Of a stretch of DNA of 48,837 nucleotides, positions 14,047 to 21,937 are shown in pieces (position 1 is the first letter of the stretch; each line of letters opens with the position of its first letter). The translations under genes and the position numbers were made by a program. Origin of the DNA: Promethearchaeota archaeon (lineage in GTDB: Archaea; Asgardarchaeota; Lokiarchaeia; Sigyniarchaeales; Sigyniarchaeaceae); contig JAFGBX010000057.1 in the NCBI GenBank assembly GCA_016932935.1, positions 1 through 48,837 on the forward strand. Reading direction: 5' to 3'. The notes below the pieces were generated by a model. That model did not search any database, was not told the DNA's origin, and saw nothing but the letters and a program-made list of their open reading frames with translations.

Positions 14047-14874
14047 CTACTTGAAGATGCGCTCGTACAGCGCCTCGACGACGCCGTCCCTTTGCTTCAA
14101 CACGAGCTCTGGATCCTCGGACACGAGTATCACGCTCACGATGACCTTGTGGAGGTAGGCCGTGGTCACGAACCGGATCGGCTGGCTGAAGACACCCTTG
14201 AACTGCTCCTCCACGTCGGAGAAGGCTTTCTTCGTGCGTTCCGGGTCGGCCTTGGGCAACTCGATGCTGAACGCGTACCGCGTGATCTCCCGCTGGACGA
14301 GCTCGTCCTTGAAGTTTCGCGGCCCCCTCATGATCCCCTCGTGCTCGTGGACGGGCAAGGAGAAGTTCGCGATCTTGGAATTGATGATGGCCTGGTTGGA
14401 GATGAAATAGTGGCCGCCGGATCGGAGCCTCAGTTTCGTGTGGTTGAGGCTTATCTCGTCGACGATGCCCTCATATTCGTTGATCCGAACGAGGTCTCCG
14501 ACGTTGAACGGGCGCGTGAGGATGATGTAAATGCCAGCGACGAAGTTCTGGACGACCGTGGTGGCGGAGAGCGCGAACACGGTTCCGATCGCCGTGCTGA
14601 TGATGAGGGCGACCTCGACCGGGATGCCACCGGGGATCAAGTTCCAAGACATGGAGATGAAGGTGCTGAACACCACCAGCACGACGATCAACCGCACGAC
14701 AAACCGGACGCCGTTGACGACGTTGGGGGACAGCTTGAACCGGCTGACGAACCGCTTGAGGAAGAACACGACGACCTTGTAGGCGACGAACACGACGAGC
14801 AAAACTCCTACGAAGACCGACCACCACAAGAGGTACGAGAAGAACGCCTCGGGGCCCGCTTGGTTCACCGCCAT
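14047..14874 (-). CDS. MscS-family mechanosensitive channel (second of a pair)
   Basis: A 275-residue channel protein: three to four membrane helices (about residues 12-125), then the pore-lining and beta-domain signature FALSATTVVQNFVAGIYIILTRPFNVGDLVRI and VDEISLNHTKLRLRSGGHYFISN, matching the MscS core. It releases solutes on osmotic downshift. The true start is ATG 14874; the longer track frame (15048) runs antisense-free through the upstream gene in another frame and is not real. The ATG shares its A with the TGA of the upstream paralogue, implying translational coupling. Confidence 0.9.
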   Translation of the reverse strand: MAVNQAGPEAFFSYLLWWSVFVGVLLVVFVAYKVVVFFLKRFVSRFKLSPNVVNGVRFVVRLIVVLVVFSTFISMSWNLIPGGIPVEVALIISTAIGTVFALSATTVVQNFVAGIYIILTRPFNVGDLVRINEYEGIVDEISLNHTKLRLRSGGHYFISNQAIINSKIANFSLPVHEHEGIMRGPRNFKDELVQREITRYAFSIELPKADPERTKKAFSDVEEQFKGVFSQPIRFVTTAYLHKVIVSVILVSEDPELVLKQRDGVVEALYERIFK

Positions 14875-15725
14875 CACGCCGACCCGCCTCCTGGCTTGTT
14901 GATCGCGAGCCAGATGTCGTCCAGGAACTTGTCCATGTTCTCTTGGATTGCCTTCATGGTGTCCGCCGTGACGATCACTCGTACTCGCACCCGCCACCCG
15001 ATCGCCGCGACGAAAAACCGCGGGACGTAGCCGAAGATTGCCGTCCACTTCTTCCCCACCGACTCGAGTAGCCCTTCCATCTTCGCCGCGGGGATCGACA
15101 GCTCCTCCTCGATGAAGAACCGGTAGCGGACGACGTTGTCCTCTTGGAGGATGTTCATGTTGCGGGGCTTGCCCCCCGCCTTGTATTCCCTGGGAACCTT
15201 GTACACCTGCATGTTCTCGTTCATGGCCACCTTGTTGGGGATCATGGTCGTGACGCCGGTCGTCGCGTCGCGTATCTTTGAGTAGTTCAGCCCGATCTCG
15301 ATCACGAACCCTTCCAACGAGCCCATCTGGATGTAGTCGCCGACCTGGTACGGGCGCGAGGCGATGAGGTACATGCCAGCAACGAAGTTGCCGATGGCGA
15401 TTGCGCTGGAAAAACCGATGGTCGTGGAGAAGATGGTGATGAAGTTCAGCGACGTGCTGGGGTTGATGAGGCCGAAGTAGTTAAGGAACACGAACAAGAT
15501 GATGAACGCCGAGATGATGCGGATCGTGTACATGATCCCGTTGATCGCGTCCTTCGGCGCGTTCTTCCTCTTGCCCAGCTTTCGTTTCACGATGCGCCCG
15601 AGTATGGATTGAACCAGCCAGATGATCAGGATGATCCCGACGCCAATAACCGCGTTTATGAGGAACGCGACGATCTCGAATTGAAAAAGCACGATCCATC
15701 GACCTTGAAAACGGGAACCACCCAT
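14874..15725 (-). CDS. MscS-family mechanosensitive channel (first of a pair)
   Basis: A paralogue of the gene behind it: membrane helices at about residues 12-35, 58-80 and 88-115, then SSAIAIGNFVAGMYLIASRPYQVGDYIQM and VIEIGLNYSKIRDATTGVTTMIPN, the MscS pore and beta domain. The two proteins are clearly divergent, so they may form channels of different gating or a hetero-oligomer. I choose ATG 15725, because the TTG used by the track (15767) lies inside the probable TATA region (ttattatt on the minus strand, about 15766-15773), whose transcript start would fall near 15742. Confidence 0.88.
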   Translation of the reverse strand: MGGSRFQGRWIVLFQFEIVAFLINAVIGVGIILIIWLVQSILGRIVKRKLGKRKNAPKDAINGIMYTIRIISAFIILFVFLNYFGLINPSTSLNFITIFSTTIGFSSAIAIGNFVAGMYLIASRPYQVGDYIQMGSLEGFVIEIGLNYSKIRDATTGVTTMIPNKVAMNENMQVYKVPREYKAGGKPRNMNILQEDNVVRYRFFIEEELSIPAAKMEGLLESVGKKWTAIFGYVPRFFVAAIGWRVRVRVIVTADTMKAIQENMDKFLDDIWLAINKPGGGSA

Positions 15726-15951
15726 CCAAATGGAAGCGGAACCCAGAATATCTTCTCGGCCAATCAATAATAAACCTTTCCCTTGTAGGCCAGCGATGGT
15801 TTGCAGTGGAACGCGCCGTGGGAGAGGATGAGGTCGGATGGGGATGGAGGCGCCTCATAAAGGGGAGGGGATGGATGACTCGCCCTGGATCATCGCATCC
15901 GGTTCCGGATATCTCACCGGGGCTTAAGGCTCCATCCCCGTTGGTGGGTTA

Positions 15952-16836
15952 TCACTTCTTGATGTTGCAGGCCCAGCAAGAGGGGTTCTTGGTCTTCTCG
16001 ATGAACGTGAACGCGTTTTTCGTCCCGTCGTACCGGAGCTCCTTGCCGTAGACGGGGGGCCCGACGTTCTCGTTCCACGTGCCGTCCTTCTTGTACTGGT
16101 CGAGGCCCAGCAGGATCTTCACGATCTGCTGGGCTTGCAGCGCCCCGATGATCGAGGTCGTCGTGATGATGTTGGCCATCTTCATCTCCGTGAAGCCGTC
16201 CTCCTTGGCGATCTCCTGCCCCGTGCACGAGAACTTCTTGAACATGTTATCGAGATCCTGCGAGGACATGCTGCACTGGATGCACGGGCAGTCCTTCACT
16301 TGCGGAACCACGCAGAAGATGCTGCCGAACCACCCGTCGATGCCCGAGTCGACGAACGGGATGTCGTAGTAGTACGAGAACGAGTTGAGCTGGAGGCGGG
16401 CCTCCATGTTGTCGAGGCAAGACGCGGTCGCGTCGCACTCCTTGTAGACGTCCTCCTTCACGTCCTCGATCTTGCCGACGATGGGCACGATCTGCGTGCG
16501 TCCGAACTCCATAGCGTTCCTCGCGACGATCTCCGCCTTCAGCCGCTTCTGCTCGACGTCTGCCTCCTTGAAGAAGACGCACCGGTTCAAGTTGGACCGG
16601 TCGACCGTGTCATAGTCGACGAGGTAGATCTTTCCGAGGCCCATCAGCACTAGGTTCTTCACGAGCTCGTTGCCGGTCGCGCCGGCGCCCACGATGAGCA
16701 CCGTGCTGGCCCGAATCTTCTCCTGGTCCCACCCCTTGAGGCGCTTCTGGCGGTCGAACAGATCCTGGTTGATGCTCTCGACCCCGAGGATCCCGATGTC
16801 GTCCACGGCATCCCCGTTTTGCTTGGTTTCGCCCAT
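15952..16836 (-). CDS. E1-like ubiquitin-activating enzyme (ThiF/UBA fold)
   Basis: A 294-residue adenylating enzyme that would activate the C-terminus of a ubiquitin-like protein with ATP. The nucleotide loop is GAGATGNE (50-57), followed by LVDYDTVDRSNLNRCVFF (73-89), which resembles eukaryotic UBA2/UBA3 and archaeal ubiquitin E1. Zinc ligands are C185/C188 (CIQC) and C287/C290 (CWAC). The candidate catalytic cysteine is C204 in FSCTGQE, at the place where UBA5 and MoeB-type enzymes carry theirs. It ends the cluster longin-GTPase, JAMM protease, E1 (34 bp behind the protease gene). It could alternatively serve a sulfur carrier for tRNA thiolation, since an Ncs6 gene lies 4 kb away. No ubiquitin or E2 is in the window. 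Confidence 0.88.
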   Translation of the reverse strand: MGETKQNGDAVDDIGILGVESINQDLFDRQKRLKGWDQEKIRASTVLIVGAGATGNELVKNLVLMGLGKIYLVDYDTVDRSNLNRCVFFKEADVEQKRLKAEIVARNAMEFGRTQIVPIVGKIEDVKEDVYKECDATASCLDNMEARLQLNSFSYYYDIPFVDSGIDGWFGSIFCVVPQVKDCPCIQCSMSSQDLDNMFKKFSCTGQEIAKEDGFTEMKMANIITTTSIIGALQAQQIVKILLGLDQYKKDGTWNENVGPPVYGKELRYDGTKNAFTFIEKTKNPSCWACNIKK

Positions 16837-16870
16837 GGCACCGCCCCGCGCGGCTCGTGATGCTACCGGT

Positions 16871-17350
16871 TCATTTCTTCTCCCGCAAGACCGCGTAGCT
16901 CACGTAGTGGTAGTGCTTCTCGTCGTCAATCTTGAAGAAAGCCCTCTCGTTCCGGATGGGATCGACCACCAGGGCCACGTGGAACCCCTTGTTGAACATC
17001 TCCATAGTCTTGATGTCGACCGAGCTCAGGAACACGCCGAGGTTCGGGTGGCTGTGCCACCAGCCGACGATGATGGAACCCGGGTGTTCCTTTTCCTTCA
17101 TGACCGACATCTCGCCGACGGCGCCGTCGATCACCTGGGTGAAGATGGCGGATCCCTCTATCAGCGCGGAGAACAAGAAGCCGTTGATCAGGACGTACTC
17201 CTTCCCCTTGTGCTTGTAGGCGTTGCCGACGAGCATTCCGATGATCTCGTACTTGTTGTTCTTGCACCGCTGCTCGATCTCGTCGAGGATGCGTTTCTGG
17301 ATGTAGACGTCGTGCACGTAATCGTTTTTATCCTTGTCTTCATCTGCCAT
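16871..17350 (-). CDS. JAMM/MPN+ metalloprotease (Rpn11-like deubiquitinase)
   Basis: A 159-residue MPN domain with an intact catalytic JAMM motif: E35 (YEIIGMLVG), H99-x-H101 (WHSHPN), S109 and D112 in the exact spacing HxH-x7-S-xx-D. These residues bind the zinc and water that cleave isopeptide bonds between ubiquitin-like modifiers and targets, or process modifier precursors. The WWHSHPNLGVFLSSVD form is nearer to eukaryotic Rpn11/CSN5 than to bacterial JAB proteins. It lies 11 bp behind the longin-GTPase and 34 bp before the E1, so it belongs to the same transcription unit. Confidence 0.9.
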   Translation of the reverse strand: MADEDKDKNDYVHDVYIQKRILDEIEQRCKNNKYEIIGMLVGNAYKHKGKEYVLINGFLFSALIEGSAIFTQVIDGAVGEMSVMKEKEHPGSIIVGWWHSHPNLGVFLSSVDIKTMEMFNKGFHVALVVDPIRNERAFFKIDDEKHYHYVSYAVLREKK

Positions 17351-17361
17351 CCGGGATCACT

Positions 17362-18273
17362 TCACTGGGGCGGCTCTGCTGCTGGTGTCTCGGTTTCGGA
17401 CACCTGGGATGAGAAGATGTTCGACAGCATCTGGCCGATCAGCGCGAAGAACTTGCCCTTGGCCTCGGAGTCGATGGACGAGAACCCGTATGTCTTCAAT
17501 ACCAAGTTCTTCTCGATCATCTCAGGTTCGAGCGCAACGTCTTTCATGTCTTGCATGTTCGCCAGCACGACCAACCGCCCTTTGCGGACGTTCGCCTTGA
17601 GCTTGTCGACGAACTTCCTCGTGCGGCTCACGTTGGACACCCCCGAGCTCACGACGAGGATGACGATGTCCGCAGACTTGAGCAGGTCGACATGAAGCCG
17701 GATCTCGTTGACCAGCGGCTCCAGCGTGAACTTGAAGAGGTCCATCTGCTTCACGTTCTGGATGCCCTCGACCGAGACCGACTTCTTGAAGATCTCGTTG
17801 TCGTTCTCGTCCAGGGAGAGGATGCCCTCGCCGGGGAAGAAGTCGAACAGGGTGGACTTGCCGACGCCTGGCTCGCCAACGATGACGATCTTGAGCGGCA
17901 AGGCGATCATCTCGTCGATGATCTCGTCGAACGGGCGGAAGATGGTGACGTTCCCGTTCCAGTTCTTGATCTGGTCCGCGAACATGCGGTGGAACTCGTT
18001 CTTGACCTTCTCGATGCGGCCCTGCACCTCCTCCTCCAGGTCGTCCTTGTCACAGCAGAAGACGAAGAGCATGTCACCCTCGCCGACTGAATATATGAAG
18101 CGGATGTCTTGCATGACGAGGCTCTCGATCTTACCACCCTTCACCTCGGAGCTGAAGGACGCCAGTGCGGTGAGGAAGCCGGAGATCAGGTCCTGGTCGA
18201 CTTTCTTGTCACCGTACTGCCTGGAGTACATCAAAAGGCCGCCCGTGCCTATGACCATAAAATTGCGTATCAT
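17362..18273 (-). CDS. Longin-domain / degenerate GTPase fusion
   Basis: The N-terminal ~125 residues (MIRNFMVIGTGGLLMYSRQY ... GDMLFVFCCDKDD ... long helix) have the strand-strand-helix order of longin/roadblock-type domains found in vesicle-trafficking proteins. From residue 128 a GTPase-like domain begins with P-loop GEPGVGKST (133-141). The DxxG motif is not clear, and NKxD is replaced by NMQD (239-242), so nucleotide specificity is uncertain. The C-terminus is a Pro/Glu-rich tail. It is the first gene of the operon with the JAMM protease (11 bp) and E1. Longin-GTPase fusions are a recurring Asgard feature; a membrane or scaffold role for the modification enzymes is only an inference. Confidence 0.7.
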   Translation of the reverse strand: MIRNFMVIGTGGLLMYSRQYGDKKVDQDLISGFLTALASFSSEVKGGKIESLVMQDIRFIYSVGEGDMLFVFCCDKDDLEEEVQGRIEKVKNEFHRMFADQIKNWNGNVTIFRPFDEIIDEMIALPLKIVIVGEPGVGKSTLFDFFPGEGILSLDENDNEIFKKSVSVEGIQNVKQMDLFKFTLEPLVNEIRLHVDLLKSADIVILVVSSGVSNVSRTRKFVDKLKANVRKGRLVVLANMQDMKDVALEPEMIEKNLVLKTYGFSSIDSEAKGKFFALIGQMLSNIFSSQVSETETPAAEPPQ

Positions 18274-19071: not shown

Positions 19072-19460
19072 ACGTCGCCGACCTCAAGGTGCTGCTCACC
19101 CAGAACGTCGGCCTCCAGGTCGACGACCACGGCACCTTCATCACGAGCGTGTGGAAGATCAGCGACAAGGTGCAGAAGCAGATCGTCTTCTTCCCAGACG
19201 ACGAGACCAAGCTGGTCTATGTCTCGATCCGGTTCGAGGAGCGCTGCGACGACCCGGGGTTCCTGGCCGCGCTGCTGCGGGAGAACCTCAAGCTCTCGGT
19301 CGTGAAGTTCTGCATGGACAAGGACGGGCGCTTCATGGCACTCGCCGAGCTGCCGGACGACTTCGTGAGCGACGACCTGATCCGGAGGGCGCTCTATGGC
19401 CTCTACACGGCGGCCGGGCGCTTCCAAGAGCTGCTTGCCGCCGCGACCGGGGCGCGGTGA
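19068..19460 (+). CDS. YbjN / secretion-chaperone-like small protein
   Basis: The track lists only a longer frame (18699) that is a shadow of the previous gene in its first third. The real start is probably TTG 19068, overlapping the previous stop by four bases. The 130-residue product, with DDHGTFITSVWKISDKVQKQIVFFPDDETKLVYVSIRF, then a helix and KFCMDKDGRFMALAELPDDFVSDDLIRRALYGLY, has the strand pattern and C-terminal helix of YbjN or type III secretion chaperone-like folds. Those bind proteins rather than catalyse. Function here unknown; coupling ties it to the upstream hypothetical protein. Confidence 0.6.
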   Translation: MNVADLKVLLTQNVGLQVDDHGTFITSVWKISDKVQKQIVFFPDDETKLVYVSIRFEERCDDPGFLAALLRENLKLSVVKFCMDKDGRFMALAELPDDFVSDDLIRRALYGLYTAAGRFQELLAAATGAR

Positions 19461-19497
19461 CCGCCCCGAAGCGACCCGACATGCCGAGGCGCCGGCC

Positions 19498-20805
19498 ATG
19501 CTGCGAGCCACGTATTACCTGGAGACCCACGGGTGCACGCTCAACTCGAGCGACTCGGAGCTGATCGCGGGGATCCTGCACGGCGCGGGGATCGACGAGG
19601 TCGGATCCCCTGGCGATGCGGACTTCATCATCCTCAACACGTGTGGCGTGAAGACGGCCACGGAGCAGAAGATCCTCCACCGGATCCGCCAGTACGCCCG
19701 GCTCGATGGGAGGATCCTGGTGATCGCGGGTTGCTTGCCGCTCATCCTCAAGGATGACCTCGGGGCGCTCATGCGGCTCGCGCCCGGCTTCGGCGCGATG
19801 GTCGGCCCGAGGAACTACCACGAGCTCTCGGGCGTCATCGATGCCCTCCGGGGGGGGACCCGCAACATCGTCAGGATCGACGGGGCATCGCTCGGTGCCA
19901 AGGAGCGCCTCGAACCGCGCCGCCCGCATGGCCACGTGGCGATACTACCTATCGCCGAGGGGTGTACGGGGGCGTGCACGTACTGCTGCACCAGGTTCGC
20001 CCGCGGTTCCCTCGACTGCTACAACGCATCGCACCTCGTCGACAAGTTCTCCAGGTACGTCGTCGCGGGGGCGAGGGAGGTGTTCCTCACGGCCGAGGAC
20101 TGCTCCGCGTACCTGGACCCGGCCGAGGGCGTGACCTTGCCCGGCCTGGTTGACCGGCTCCTCGAGAAACCCGGCGGGTACCACTTGCGCATCGGCATGA
20201 TGAACCCGGGGACGCTCCTTCGCGTGCACGAGCACCTCGTCCGGGCGATGCGGGATCCACGCGTGTTCGCGTTCGCCCACGTGCCCGTGCAGTCTGGCTC
20301 GGACCGCGTCTTGAGGGCAATGAACCGGACGTACTCGGTCGCCGACTTCACGGGGATGATCGACGCGTTCAAGGCGGCCATCCCCGGCATCACGATCGCC
20401 ACGGACGTCATCTGTGGCTTCCCGGGGGAGACGGACGGGGACTTCCAGCAGACCGTCGACCTCTTGCTCCGCATCCGCCCCGACGTCGTCAACATATCCA
20501 AGTACGGCCACAGGCCCGGCACGGCCGCGTCCAAGCTCAAGCAAATCGACTCGGGCACGGTCAAGGCGCGCACGCGCGAGCTCACGGCCGCCCACGAGCG
20601 GGTCACGATGCGCAACAACGAGGAATGGGTGGGCTGGGAGGGGGAAGCGATCATCGAGGAATACAACGAGAAGAACGGGAACTGGCTCGCCAGGAACCGG
20701 TTCTACAAGCCCATCATCGTGGGGAGGGGGATCCTCGGCGGAACCGTGCGGGTCGAGATAACGGGCGCCGCCCCGCATCACCTCATCGGGAAGGTCACGT
20801 GCTAG
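19498..20805 (+). CDS. tRNA t6A37 methylthiotransferase (e-MtaB / CDKAL1-like)
   Basis: A 435-residue radical-SAM enzyme that adds a methylthio group to t6A37 of tRNAs reading ANN codons. Domains in order: UPF0004 (1-110) with YLETHGCTLNSSDSE, NTCGVKTATEQ and AGCLP supplying three cluster cysteines; radical SAM (140-370) with GCTGACTYCCTRFARG, the CxxxCxxC motif; a C-terminal TRAM domain (about 375-435). The VKTATEQKI form and CTYC fit the archaeal/eukaryotic MtaB branch rather than bacterial MiaB. I start at ATG 19498 (MLRATYYLETHGC). It converges with and overlaps the Ncs6 gene by 11 bp, placing two tRNA-modification genes tail to tail. Confidence 0.92.
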   Translation: MLRATYYLETHGCTLNSSDSELIAGILHGAGIDEVGSPGDADFIILNTCGVKTATEQKILHRIRQYARLDGRILVIAGCLPLILKDDLGALMRLAPGFGAMVGPRNYHELSGVIDALRGGTRNIVRIDGASLGAKERLEPRRPHGHVAILPIAEGCTGACTYCCTRFARGSLDCYNASHLVDKFSRYVVAGAREVFLTAEDCSAYLDPAEGVTLPGLVDRLLEKPGGYHLRIGMMNPGTLLRVHEHLVRAMRDPRVFAFAHVPVQSGSDRVLRAMNRTYSVADFTGMIDAFKAAIPGITIATDVICGFPGETDGDFQQTVDLLLRIRPDVVNISKYGHRPGTAASKLKQIDSGTVKARTRELTAAHERVTMRNNEEWVGWEGEAIIEEYNEKNGNWLARNRFYKPIIVGRGILGGTVRVEITGAAPHHLIGKVTC

Positions 20806-21889
20806 TTCCTCGGTGCCGATCGAGGAAGCCATCCATGGCGCGGCGATAATCCTTCCCACATAGCTCGTCCAGGTAGAAACACGCCATGCACCGCTCGAGC
20901 GCCTTGCTCTTCGGGGCGCCGCAGCGGGGGCACGCCGAGATCGTCCCGGGCACGACGGGTCTCGACAGCAGCGGGAAGACCTCGTCGAGGAACTTCTTGA
21001 TGTTGAAGAGGGTGCCCGGGTGGCCTGCCTCGAGGCCGTTTAAGATGCCCTGGGCCTCGGCGCGGAAGACGTTCTCCCGTGCGTGGGGGCACGCGTTCTC
21101 CTGGAACTCCCCGCCGACGTAATACAGGTACAAGACGACGTCATGTTGGGGCAGGTCTTGCAGGGGCTTGATCTTCTTCACGAACGGCGAGGCGTCGTCC
21201 TCCATGGCGGCGGATGCCGCGTGTCCCATGCGGTTCACGTCGCCCTTGAACAGGTTGATCAGGAACGTCTCGGCCTCGTCGTTCAAGTTGTGGCCCATGG
21301 CGAGCTTCGTGGCTTGCAGGCCGGCAGCGAGGTCGTTGAGCACCCGGCGGCGCAACACGCCGCATATCGAACACGGCTTGCCAACGACCTTCATGGCGTT
21401 CTTGAGCTGGCCGCCTCGGCGGCCGTCGCCCTCGCACATGGATCGCAAGGTCGCCGGGTCGGCGGCGGCCGAGACCATCTCGTCGAGCGAAAGCCCGAAC
21501 TCCTTCTTGAAGGAGAACACGACTTGCTCGATGCCCAGCTCCTTGCAAACCTCCGACGCGATGCGGAGGCTCTCGTCCCGATAGCCCGCGATGCCCTCGT
21601 CGACCGTGATCGCGACGGGCGCACGCCCGCGCTTCGCTTGCTGGGCGAGCAGCTGCCCGTGCACCGACGTCACGGCGCGGAGCATGACCGTGCTGTCCTT
21701 CCCGCCCGACACGGCGAACGCGACCTTGTCGTCCGGCCCCGCCATCTTGCACCGGGACATGGCCCGCCGCACCCTGTCCTCGATCTCCTTCAAGAAGCAC
21801 GCCTTGCACACCTTCTCGCCGGAATGGATCCGCTCCATGACGGGGCGGTTTTTCTTGCACCGGACGCATACCGGCGATTCGTGTGTCAT
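20795..21889 (-). CDS. tRNA 2-thiolation enzyme, Ncs6/TtuA/CTU1 family
   Basis: A PP-loop ATPase of 364 residues that adenylates U34 (or U54) of tRNA for 2-thiolation. It has an N-terminal zinc pair CVRCKK ... CKAC, PP-loop FAVSGGKDST, a cysteine motif CSICGVLRR for the Fe-S cluster or persulfide chemistry, MGHNLNDEAETFL, and a C-terminal zinc site CPRC ... CMAC. The start is ATG 21889. In archaea and eukaryotes sulfur comes from a ubiquitin-like carrier activated by an E1-like enzyme, so the E1 gene at 16 kb could be a partner; that link is inference. Confidence 0.9.
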   Translation of the reverse strand: MTHESPVCVRCKKNRPVMERIHSGEKVCKACFLKEIEDRVRRAMSRCKMAGPDDKVAFAVSGGKDSTVMLRAVTSVHGQLLAQQAKRGRAPVAITVDEGIAGYRDESLRIASEVCKELGIEQVVFSFKKEFGLSLDEMVSAAADPATLRSMCEGDGRRGGQLKNAMKVVGKPCSICGVLRRRVLNDLAAGLQATKLAMGHNLNDEAETFLINLFKGDVNRMGHAASAAMEDDASPFVKKIKPLQDLPQHDVVLYLYYVGGEFQENACPHARENVFRAEAQGILNGLEAGHPGTLFNIKKFLDEVFPLLSRPVVPGTISACPRCGAPKSKALERCMACFYLDELCGKDYRRAMDGFLDRHRGTST

Positions 21890-21937
21890 TGCGCGGGCAC
21901 CAAGCAAGGGGAGGTGGTACCGGGGTGCTCCCGACGG

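Follow-up and report, generated by a model that had tools for sequence, protein, structure and literature searches.

A longin-GTPase gene joined to JAMM and E1 genes in a Sigynarchaeota genome: a probable core of a dedicated ubiquitin-like conjugation system

The stretch of DNA analyzed here (the window) is the 48,837-nucleotide contig JAFGBX010000057.1 of assembly GCA_016932935.1, from a Sigynarchaeota genome (G000; 5.1 Mb in 476 contigs, 82% complete), Sigynarchaeota being an order of Lokiarchaeia. An operon on its minus strand encodes a longin-GTPase fusion (LG), a JAMM metalloprotease, and an E1 enzyme, and very probably represents the E1 and JAMM core, plus the GTPase partner LG, of a dedicated conjugation system for a ubiquitin-like protein (Ubl). 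This assignment draws on gene presence, gene order, motifs, co-occurrence, clade membership, and predicted folds. An earlier note on the window had described three co-directional genes with gaps of 11 and 34 bp; the order LG > JAMM > E1, the strand, and the gaps were verified, and all three open reading frames (ORFs) are real. Pfam searches of the window returned ThiF (2.6e-45), JAB (6.7e-10), and a weak P-loop GTPase match.

The order LG > JAMM > E1 is conserved in related genomes, and the unlinking of the three genes there, which the earlier note had named as an outcome that would refute its proposal, did not occur. Of the 24 loci with readable upstream sequence, 22 have LG immediately upstream of JAMM. 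Chance does not explain the gene order, which is shared by 22 loci whose LG proteins are about 31–91% identical. The neighborhoods of LG homologues in Lokiarchaeia (Loki clusters) revealed a larger unit that runs LG > JAMM > E1 > E2, together with a convergent gene for a Ubl of 84–91 aa; neither E2 nor Ubl was missing from any of the 21 Loki E1 loci. Co-occurrence was counted in 117 Asgard genomes. Of these, 24 had both E1 and Ubl, four had only one of them, and 89 had neither; for E1 and the specific LG subfamily the corresponding counts were 25, two, and 90. The dedicated E2 was present in 23 of the 26 E1-bearing genomes. Even within a single genus (g9), the components were jointly present (G013, G017, G052, and G069) or, in most other members, absent. 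The side-by-side position of the five genes in related Lokiarchaeia suggests that a link between protein tagging and small GTPases already existed in archaea.

The small Loki gene encodes a beta-grasp Ubl that ends in V[VI]GG followed by zero to four residues, with an invariant GG, and the top Foldseek matches of its model were SUMO2, ubiquitin, and NEDD8 (target TM-score, TMt, 0.74–0.86 for single domains). A search of the window genome for beta-grasp proteins ending in GG, as the earlier note had proposed, identified an orthologue on another contig (C399:22082-22330, E 1e-41) that ends ..RVVGGAC and has the fold and the exposed or exposable GG of a modifier. Sister copies were found in G001 and G004, which, like G002, are other genomes of the window's family. 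The Loki E2 (Pfam UQ_con) carries the motif HPNIHP...GTGYICLN, in which HPN and the catalytic cysteine are invariant across the E2 alignment; both are also present in the two Sigynarchaeota E2 loci (L096 and L097), where the catalytic region reads HPNIDPYETGYICLN. Within the window's family, E2 orthologues were confined to G001 and G004, again on other contigs (E about 1e-60). The proposal of a split ubiquitin locus thus holds for this family, with the Ubl orthologue on C399 and the E2 on separate contigs of G001 and G004. A hidden Markov model search for relatives of the Ubl or E2 in the window and in the first loci taken from its own genome returned none. The Ubls on contigs C74, C405, and C392 were set aside as partners because the cluster-linked Ubl has its orthologue on C399. 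Separately, a 542-aa protein of G065 (L104:8911-10539, plus strand) contains two tandem Ubl domains (..ARVVGG and ..AFQKGG) ahead of a long region that has no Pfam match, and resembles a Ubl fusion that would have to be processed.

The JAMM gene (16871..17350, minus strand) encodes an MPN+ metalloprotease of 159 aa (Pfam JAB). The HxH-x7-S-x2-D motif reported earlier is located at residues 99–112 (HSHPNLGVFLSSVD; 17015..17056, minus strand), and in alignments of 18–19 homologues H99, H101, S109, and D112 were invariant, as was the catalytic E35. Among solved structures, an archaeal Rpn11-like protein is closest to it (E 2e-15), and the enzyme is predicted to process the Ubl precursor and to deconjugate the Ubl. 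The E1 (15952..16836, minus strand; 294 aa) is a single-domain protein of the ThiF fold. The adenylation loop, zinc ligands, and candidate catalytic cysteine that had been noticed in it are all present, namely, the nucleotide-binding loop GAGATGNE (GxGxxGNE; residues 50–57; 16666..16689), the first zinc knuckle C185-x2-C188 (16273..16284), the second zinc knuckle C287-x2-C290 (15967..15978), and C204 within SCTG (16225..16227), all on the minus strand; an SNLNR motif was also found. The catalytic and zinc residues and the adenylation aspartate were invariant in the same alignments, except for variable positions inside the nucleotide loop. C204 was invariant in the 19 operon E1s, and SCTG was retained in 40 of 54 members of the wider clade, so that, judged from its motifs, the protein combines an adenylation site with a putative catalytic cysteine, as expected of a conjugation system. 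It has no separate catalytic-cysteine domain and no C-terminal ubiquitin-fold domain (UFD), ending four residues past the second zinc knuckle. Its nearest named relatives are from Ca. Sigynarchaeum springense (91% identity) and another Sigynarchaeota metagenome-assembled genome (MAG; 82%). A JAMM-E1 pair labeled Bathyarchaeota (L113, WJJB01000249.1), whose E1 is 68% identical to that of the window, is probably from a mislabeled Sigynarchaeota-like MAG.

LG, the first gene of the unit (17362..18273, minus strand), encodes 303 aa that combine a longin-like domain with a Ras/Arf-like G domain. In the AlphaFold2 model (mean pLDDT 79), residues 1–123 (17905..18273) show the longin-like topology b-b-a-b-b-b-a-a, and the Pfam models Fuz_longin_1 or Longin matched only some LG members (Fuz_longin_1 in six of 26, best E 0.003). 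Among the top 50 PDB matches that Foldseek listed for the whole model, all contained a G domain and none was longin-only, so the longin assignment draws on the topology and the weak Pfam matches. The G domain (residues 126–293; 17395..17898) was recognized both by Foldseek, with Rab, Arl1, and MglA as matches (TMt about 0.55–0.68), and by sequence, with Arl5 as the best match (E 3.6e-5). It contains the P-loop GEPGVGKS (residues 133–140; 17854..17877), kept as GExGVGK[S/T] in 26 LG sequences, and the G4-like motif NMQD (residues 239–242; 17548..17559; ANxQD in the family), with A238, N239, Q241, and D242 invariant; all these coordinates are on the minus strand. A longin fold followed by a G domain with P-loop and NxxD is the architecture of Asgard longin-GTPase fusions. 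The earlier description of a longin-like/GTPase-like fusion is therefore supported by topology, P-loop, and ANxQD; its longin half is weak in sequence, and the description missed that no DxxG (G3, switch II) is found in the window LG or conserved in the alignment of the LG family. Likewise, the protein does lead the unit as claimed, and the trafficking function attached to it can only be surmised for a G domain that lacks DxxG. Seven loci (L058:114-2756, L060:7573-10221, L063:8831-11437, L064:8668-11310, L059:10151-12766, L061:7721-10336, and L092:820-3441) encode longer proteins of 868–882 aa in which LG is joined to a TPR-like region and to a carbon-nitrogen hydrolase (nitrilase) domain with apparent Glu-Lys-Cys residues; the fusion of L058 directly adjoins a Ubl.

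By analogy with known cascades, the JAMM would first cut the Ubl precursor (VVGG-AC) behind its GG and so remove the short tail. The E1, a single-domain enzyme that probably forms a homodimer as MoeB and UBA5 do, would then adenylate the GG and load the Ubl on C204. From there the Ubl would be handed to the cysteine of the E2, whose catalytic region reads HPNI..GTGYICLN in Loki and HPNIDPYETGYICLN in Sigynarchaeota. Gene pairing and fold suggest that the E2 would conjugate the Ubl to targets at or near LG, where either the nucleotide state of LG recruits the cascade or LG itself is the main target, and the JAMM would finally remove the Ubl. That paralogues of the Ubl and of the GTPase are paired at other sites too makes it probable that the GTPase serves the Ubl as cognate target or recruiter; Ubl paralogues adjoin G-domain paralogues without a longin domain in G017, G034, G047 (twice), and G066. 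Within this conjugation system, LG is perhaps a Ubl-marked substrate or receptor and not a regulator of the enzymes, a role that merits tentative consideration given that these pairs are one-to-one and have no E1, E2, or JAMM nearby. A conserved acidic-hydrophobic tail, DDxIIIIDD, was present at 19 E2 C-termini (e.g., L057:6065-6628) and at no other among 1,976 frames scanned, and one LG paralogue (L062:10904-11851) ends similarly in DDDIIIIVD; the tail presumably resembles a SUMO-interaction motif. However, gene pairing cannot separate a target from a recruiter or an effector, the acceptor lysine is only hypothetical, and the paired G-domain paralogues lack the longin domain of LG.

A membrane setting of the system is inferred from the longin-GTPase fold and the gene pairing. 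The tie to membranes drawn in the earlier note stands to this extent, and multi-transmembrane proteins near Loki clusters, which also point that way, are not specific to the system. These proteins, with a C-terminal eight-cysteine (C4C4) RING-like domain, flank many Loki clusters in up to three copies (cluster cl1; L058, L059, L061, L063, L070, L074, and other loci). As candidates for a dedicated E3 they are not specific to the system, being members of a large multi-copy family. No RING gene was found in the window unit, and the RING-like genes of Lokiarchaeia are located beside the unit, not inside it.

The window genome also contains a canonical ubiquitin cluster on contig C29 (locus L003), which comprises the C-terminal part of an E1, an E2, an Rpn11-like JAMM, and a transmembrane RING protein, and faces a gene for a vWA-domain protein with a ubiquitin-like C-terminal domain (..PASTAGGISIAS). 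Because this cluster is already present in the same genome, the operon of the window counts as a further system, which bears out the suggestion of a dedicated modifier system distinct from the canonical operon and rules out a split remnant of the latter. Several further Ubls and E1s are encoded in the genome as well, along with one canonical E2 that could work with them, and the window E1 and JAMM might be spare paralogous enzymes for the ubiquitins of C29 or C74. There is only a small chance that this is the case. The operon E1s form one clade (97 in the Shimodaira-Hasegawa-like approximate likelihood ratio test, SH-aLRT) within a larger clade (97) that includes E1s of Thermoplasmatota, Micrarchaeota, Hermodarchaeota, and Planctomycetota and lies outside the canonical Asgard E1s, and in the E2 tree the operon E2s are likewise separated from the canonical ones (98). 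The Ubl and E2 dedicated to the system accompany the E1 almost all-or-none and are physically joined to it in the 21 Loki loci.

A sulfur-carrier or tRNA-thiolation pathway of the Uba4-Urm1 or UbaA-SAMP type, in which the E1 would generate a Ubl thiocarboxylate, the JAMM would trim the precursor, and protein modification would be secondary, was given a slim chance. A single-domain E1 with zinc knuckles resembles UbaA and MoeB, and a PP-loop gene (ATP_bind_3, TtuA/Ncs6-like; 20795-21907) and a radical-SAM methylthiotransferase-like gene (19396-20805) are located a few kb away in the window. On the other hand, these neighbors (clusters 15 and 16) were found at four loci, only in the window's family and not at Loki clusters; a dedicated E2 accompanies the E1, whereas sulfur-carrier systems have no E2; and the E1 has no rhodanese domain. 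Grouping of the E1 with MoeB/ThiF, the other outcome that the earlier note had accepted as a refutation, did not occur, as the E1 clade was split from MoeB, ThiF, and Uba4 with SH-aLRT support of 100. The tree and the accompanying E2 also rule out a biosynthetic E1 of the MoeB/ThiF type.

An anti-phage defense system of the Bil, Bub, or CBASS kind has a similar parts list (Ubl, E1, E2, and JAMM), and the patchy distribution within genera and weak matches to the PADLOC E1-E2 and JAB models agree with it, but it is highly improbable: the matches are generic (best 39–41 bits) with none for the Ubl or E2, E1 and E2 are unfused, neither an E1-JAMM fusion nor known Bil or Bub proteins were seen, no recognized effector or defense neighbors occur in the loci read, and the genes are dispersed in Sigynarchaeota, unlike defense islands.

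Several observations weigh against a dedicated conjugation system built around the window operon. The genome search for E2 domains that the earlier note had proposed located no orthologous E2 in the window assembly, although G001 and G004 contain it. This absence fits an incomplete assembly: in G002, the contig breaks off within the gene just before E2, a gene for which no close orthologue was found in the window assembly. A gap in the sequence would be the simplest, though unproven, explanation. G002 carries LG, JAMM, and E1, and the Ubl was not detected in it. Two loci have no LG directly upstream of JAMM, namely, L077, where LG lies on the far side, and L098. LG may not work as a GTP switch since it lacks DxxG, and no dedicated E3 was identified, the RING-like proteins beside Loki clusters being non-specific. 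The Fisher p-values of the co-occurrence (about 2e-20 or lower) derive from statistics that ignore phylogeny. The trees came from quick searches in which SH-aLRT was the sole measure of support, and the deep branches of the JAMM tree were not resolved.

The ubiquitin operon of Caldiarchaeum and Asgard archaea consists of ubiquitin, E1, E2, an srfp RING protein, and Rpn11, and both JAMM cleavage of the ubiquitin precursor and a working E1/E2/E3 cascade have been demonstrated in Caldiarchaeum relatives (PMC5654768; PMC6043591). The window system is similar in that a Ubl precursor whose GG is followed by a short tail, E1, E2, and an Rpn11-like JAMM share one neighborhood. It differs in an E1 without catalytic-cysteine domain and UFD, in the lack of a RING protein, in the addition of LG, in E1s and E2s that form separate clades, and in its coexistence with the canonical operon in one genome. 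UBA5 demonstrates that a minimal E1 without the cysteine half-domain or UFD can feed an E2 (PMC12355090). The window E1 is likewise a minimal, single-adenylation-domain enzyme paired with an E2, and its own catalytic cysteine is expected in the crossover loop. In contrast to UBA5-UFM1, no UFM1 or UFC1 homology was seen in the window system; the E1 ends at the second zinc knuckle without a C-terminal UIS/UBS extension, and UBA5 is not its best match. A longin domain with an Arf/Rag-like G domain is known from MK-D1, in which small GTPase genes generally lie outside operons with roadblock, longin, or TRAPPC3 genes (PMC10933270). Asgard longin- and roadblock-GTPase fusions share the architecture of LG, but no tie to conjugation was found for them in the literature searched, and the window LG subfamily differs from them in lacking DxxG.

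The closest E1 and E2 relatives are encoded in clusters of Methanomassiliicoccales, Thermoplasmata, and Micrarchaeota (L135-L183), in which SNLNRC is present in most E1s, the Ubl ends ..DP[ET]GG, and a JAMM is included. The order is E1-Ubl-E2-JAMM in Thermoplasmatota (Ubl ..DPEGG), whereas the Micrarchaeota set (..DPTGG) is looser; unlike the window system, neither set contains LG. No paper in the literature searched ties Methanomassiliicoccales to such a system, but a third type of archaeal cluster is mentioned in PMC5654768 and may already cover this non-Asgard lineage in part. In Hermodarchaeota (L186-L189), a JAMM gene adjoins or overlaps an E1 of a related clade, with no E2 recognized by the profile used.

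Eukaryotes, to whose ancestor Asgard archaea are related, possess several parallel Ubl systems, which are used to control small GTPases and membrane traffic. One archaeal genome here combines a canonical ubiquitin operon with another Ubl cascade that is independent of it and has a longin-GTPase as a constant member, and a distinct archaeal Ubl lineage is a real possibility. It is conceivable, if still speculative, that this lineage constitutes a third kind of archaeal Ubl system besides SAMP/Urm1 and the canonical ubiquitin operon, having a minimal, UBA5-like E1 and its own Ubl, E2, and JAMM, and being common to Thermoplasmatota, Micrarchaeota, and Asgard archaea. It would be coupled in Lokiarchaeia and Sigynarchaeota to a longin-GTPase that is modified by the Ubl or gates conjugation at membranes, and the link between GTPases and ubiquitin would then be older than eukaryotes. 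Whether parallel Ubl pathways preceded eukaryotes, and whether Ubl conjugation was tied to small GTPases in archaea, thereby become testable questions, and the Methanomassiliicoccales methanogens, which together with Micrarchaeota harbor this under-described E1-Ubl-E2-JAMM lineage, may provide workable hosts.

Other genes of the window genome include an 822-aa ORF with two ThiF domains, a UBA1-like fused E1 (C282, L006:2-2470, plus strand, open at the 5' end). Its first ThiF domain lacks an SNLNRQ-type motif and has orthologues in long open frames (732–892 aa) of G001, G002, and G004; the second contains SNLSRQ and REHCV, and the C-terminal tail may correspond to a ubiquitin-fold domain. A 630-aa protein (C99, L004:1880-3769, minus strand) combines UBC/RWD-like domains with a C-terminal RING-like cysteine-rich region. 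In the window itself, two overlapping genes for MscS-type mechanosensitive channels (14047-15767, minus strand) are located directly downstream of E1 on the same strand.

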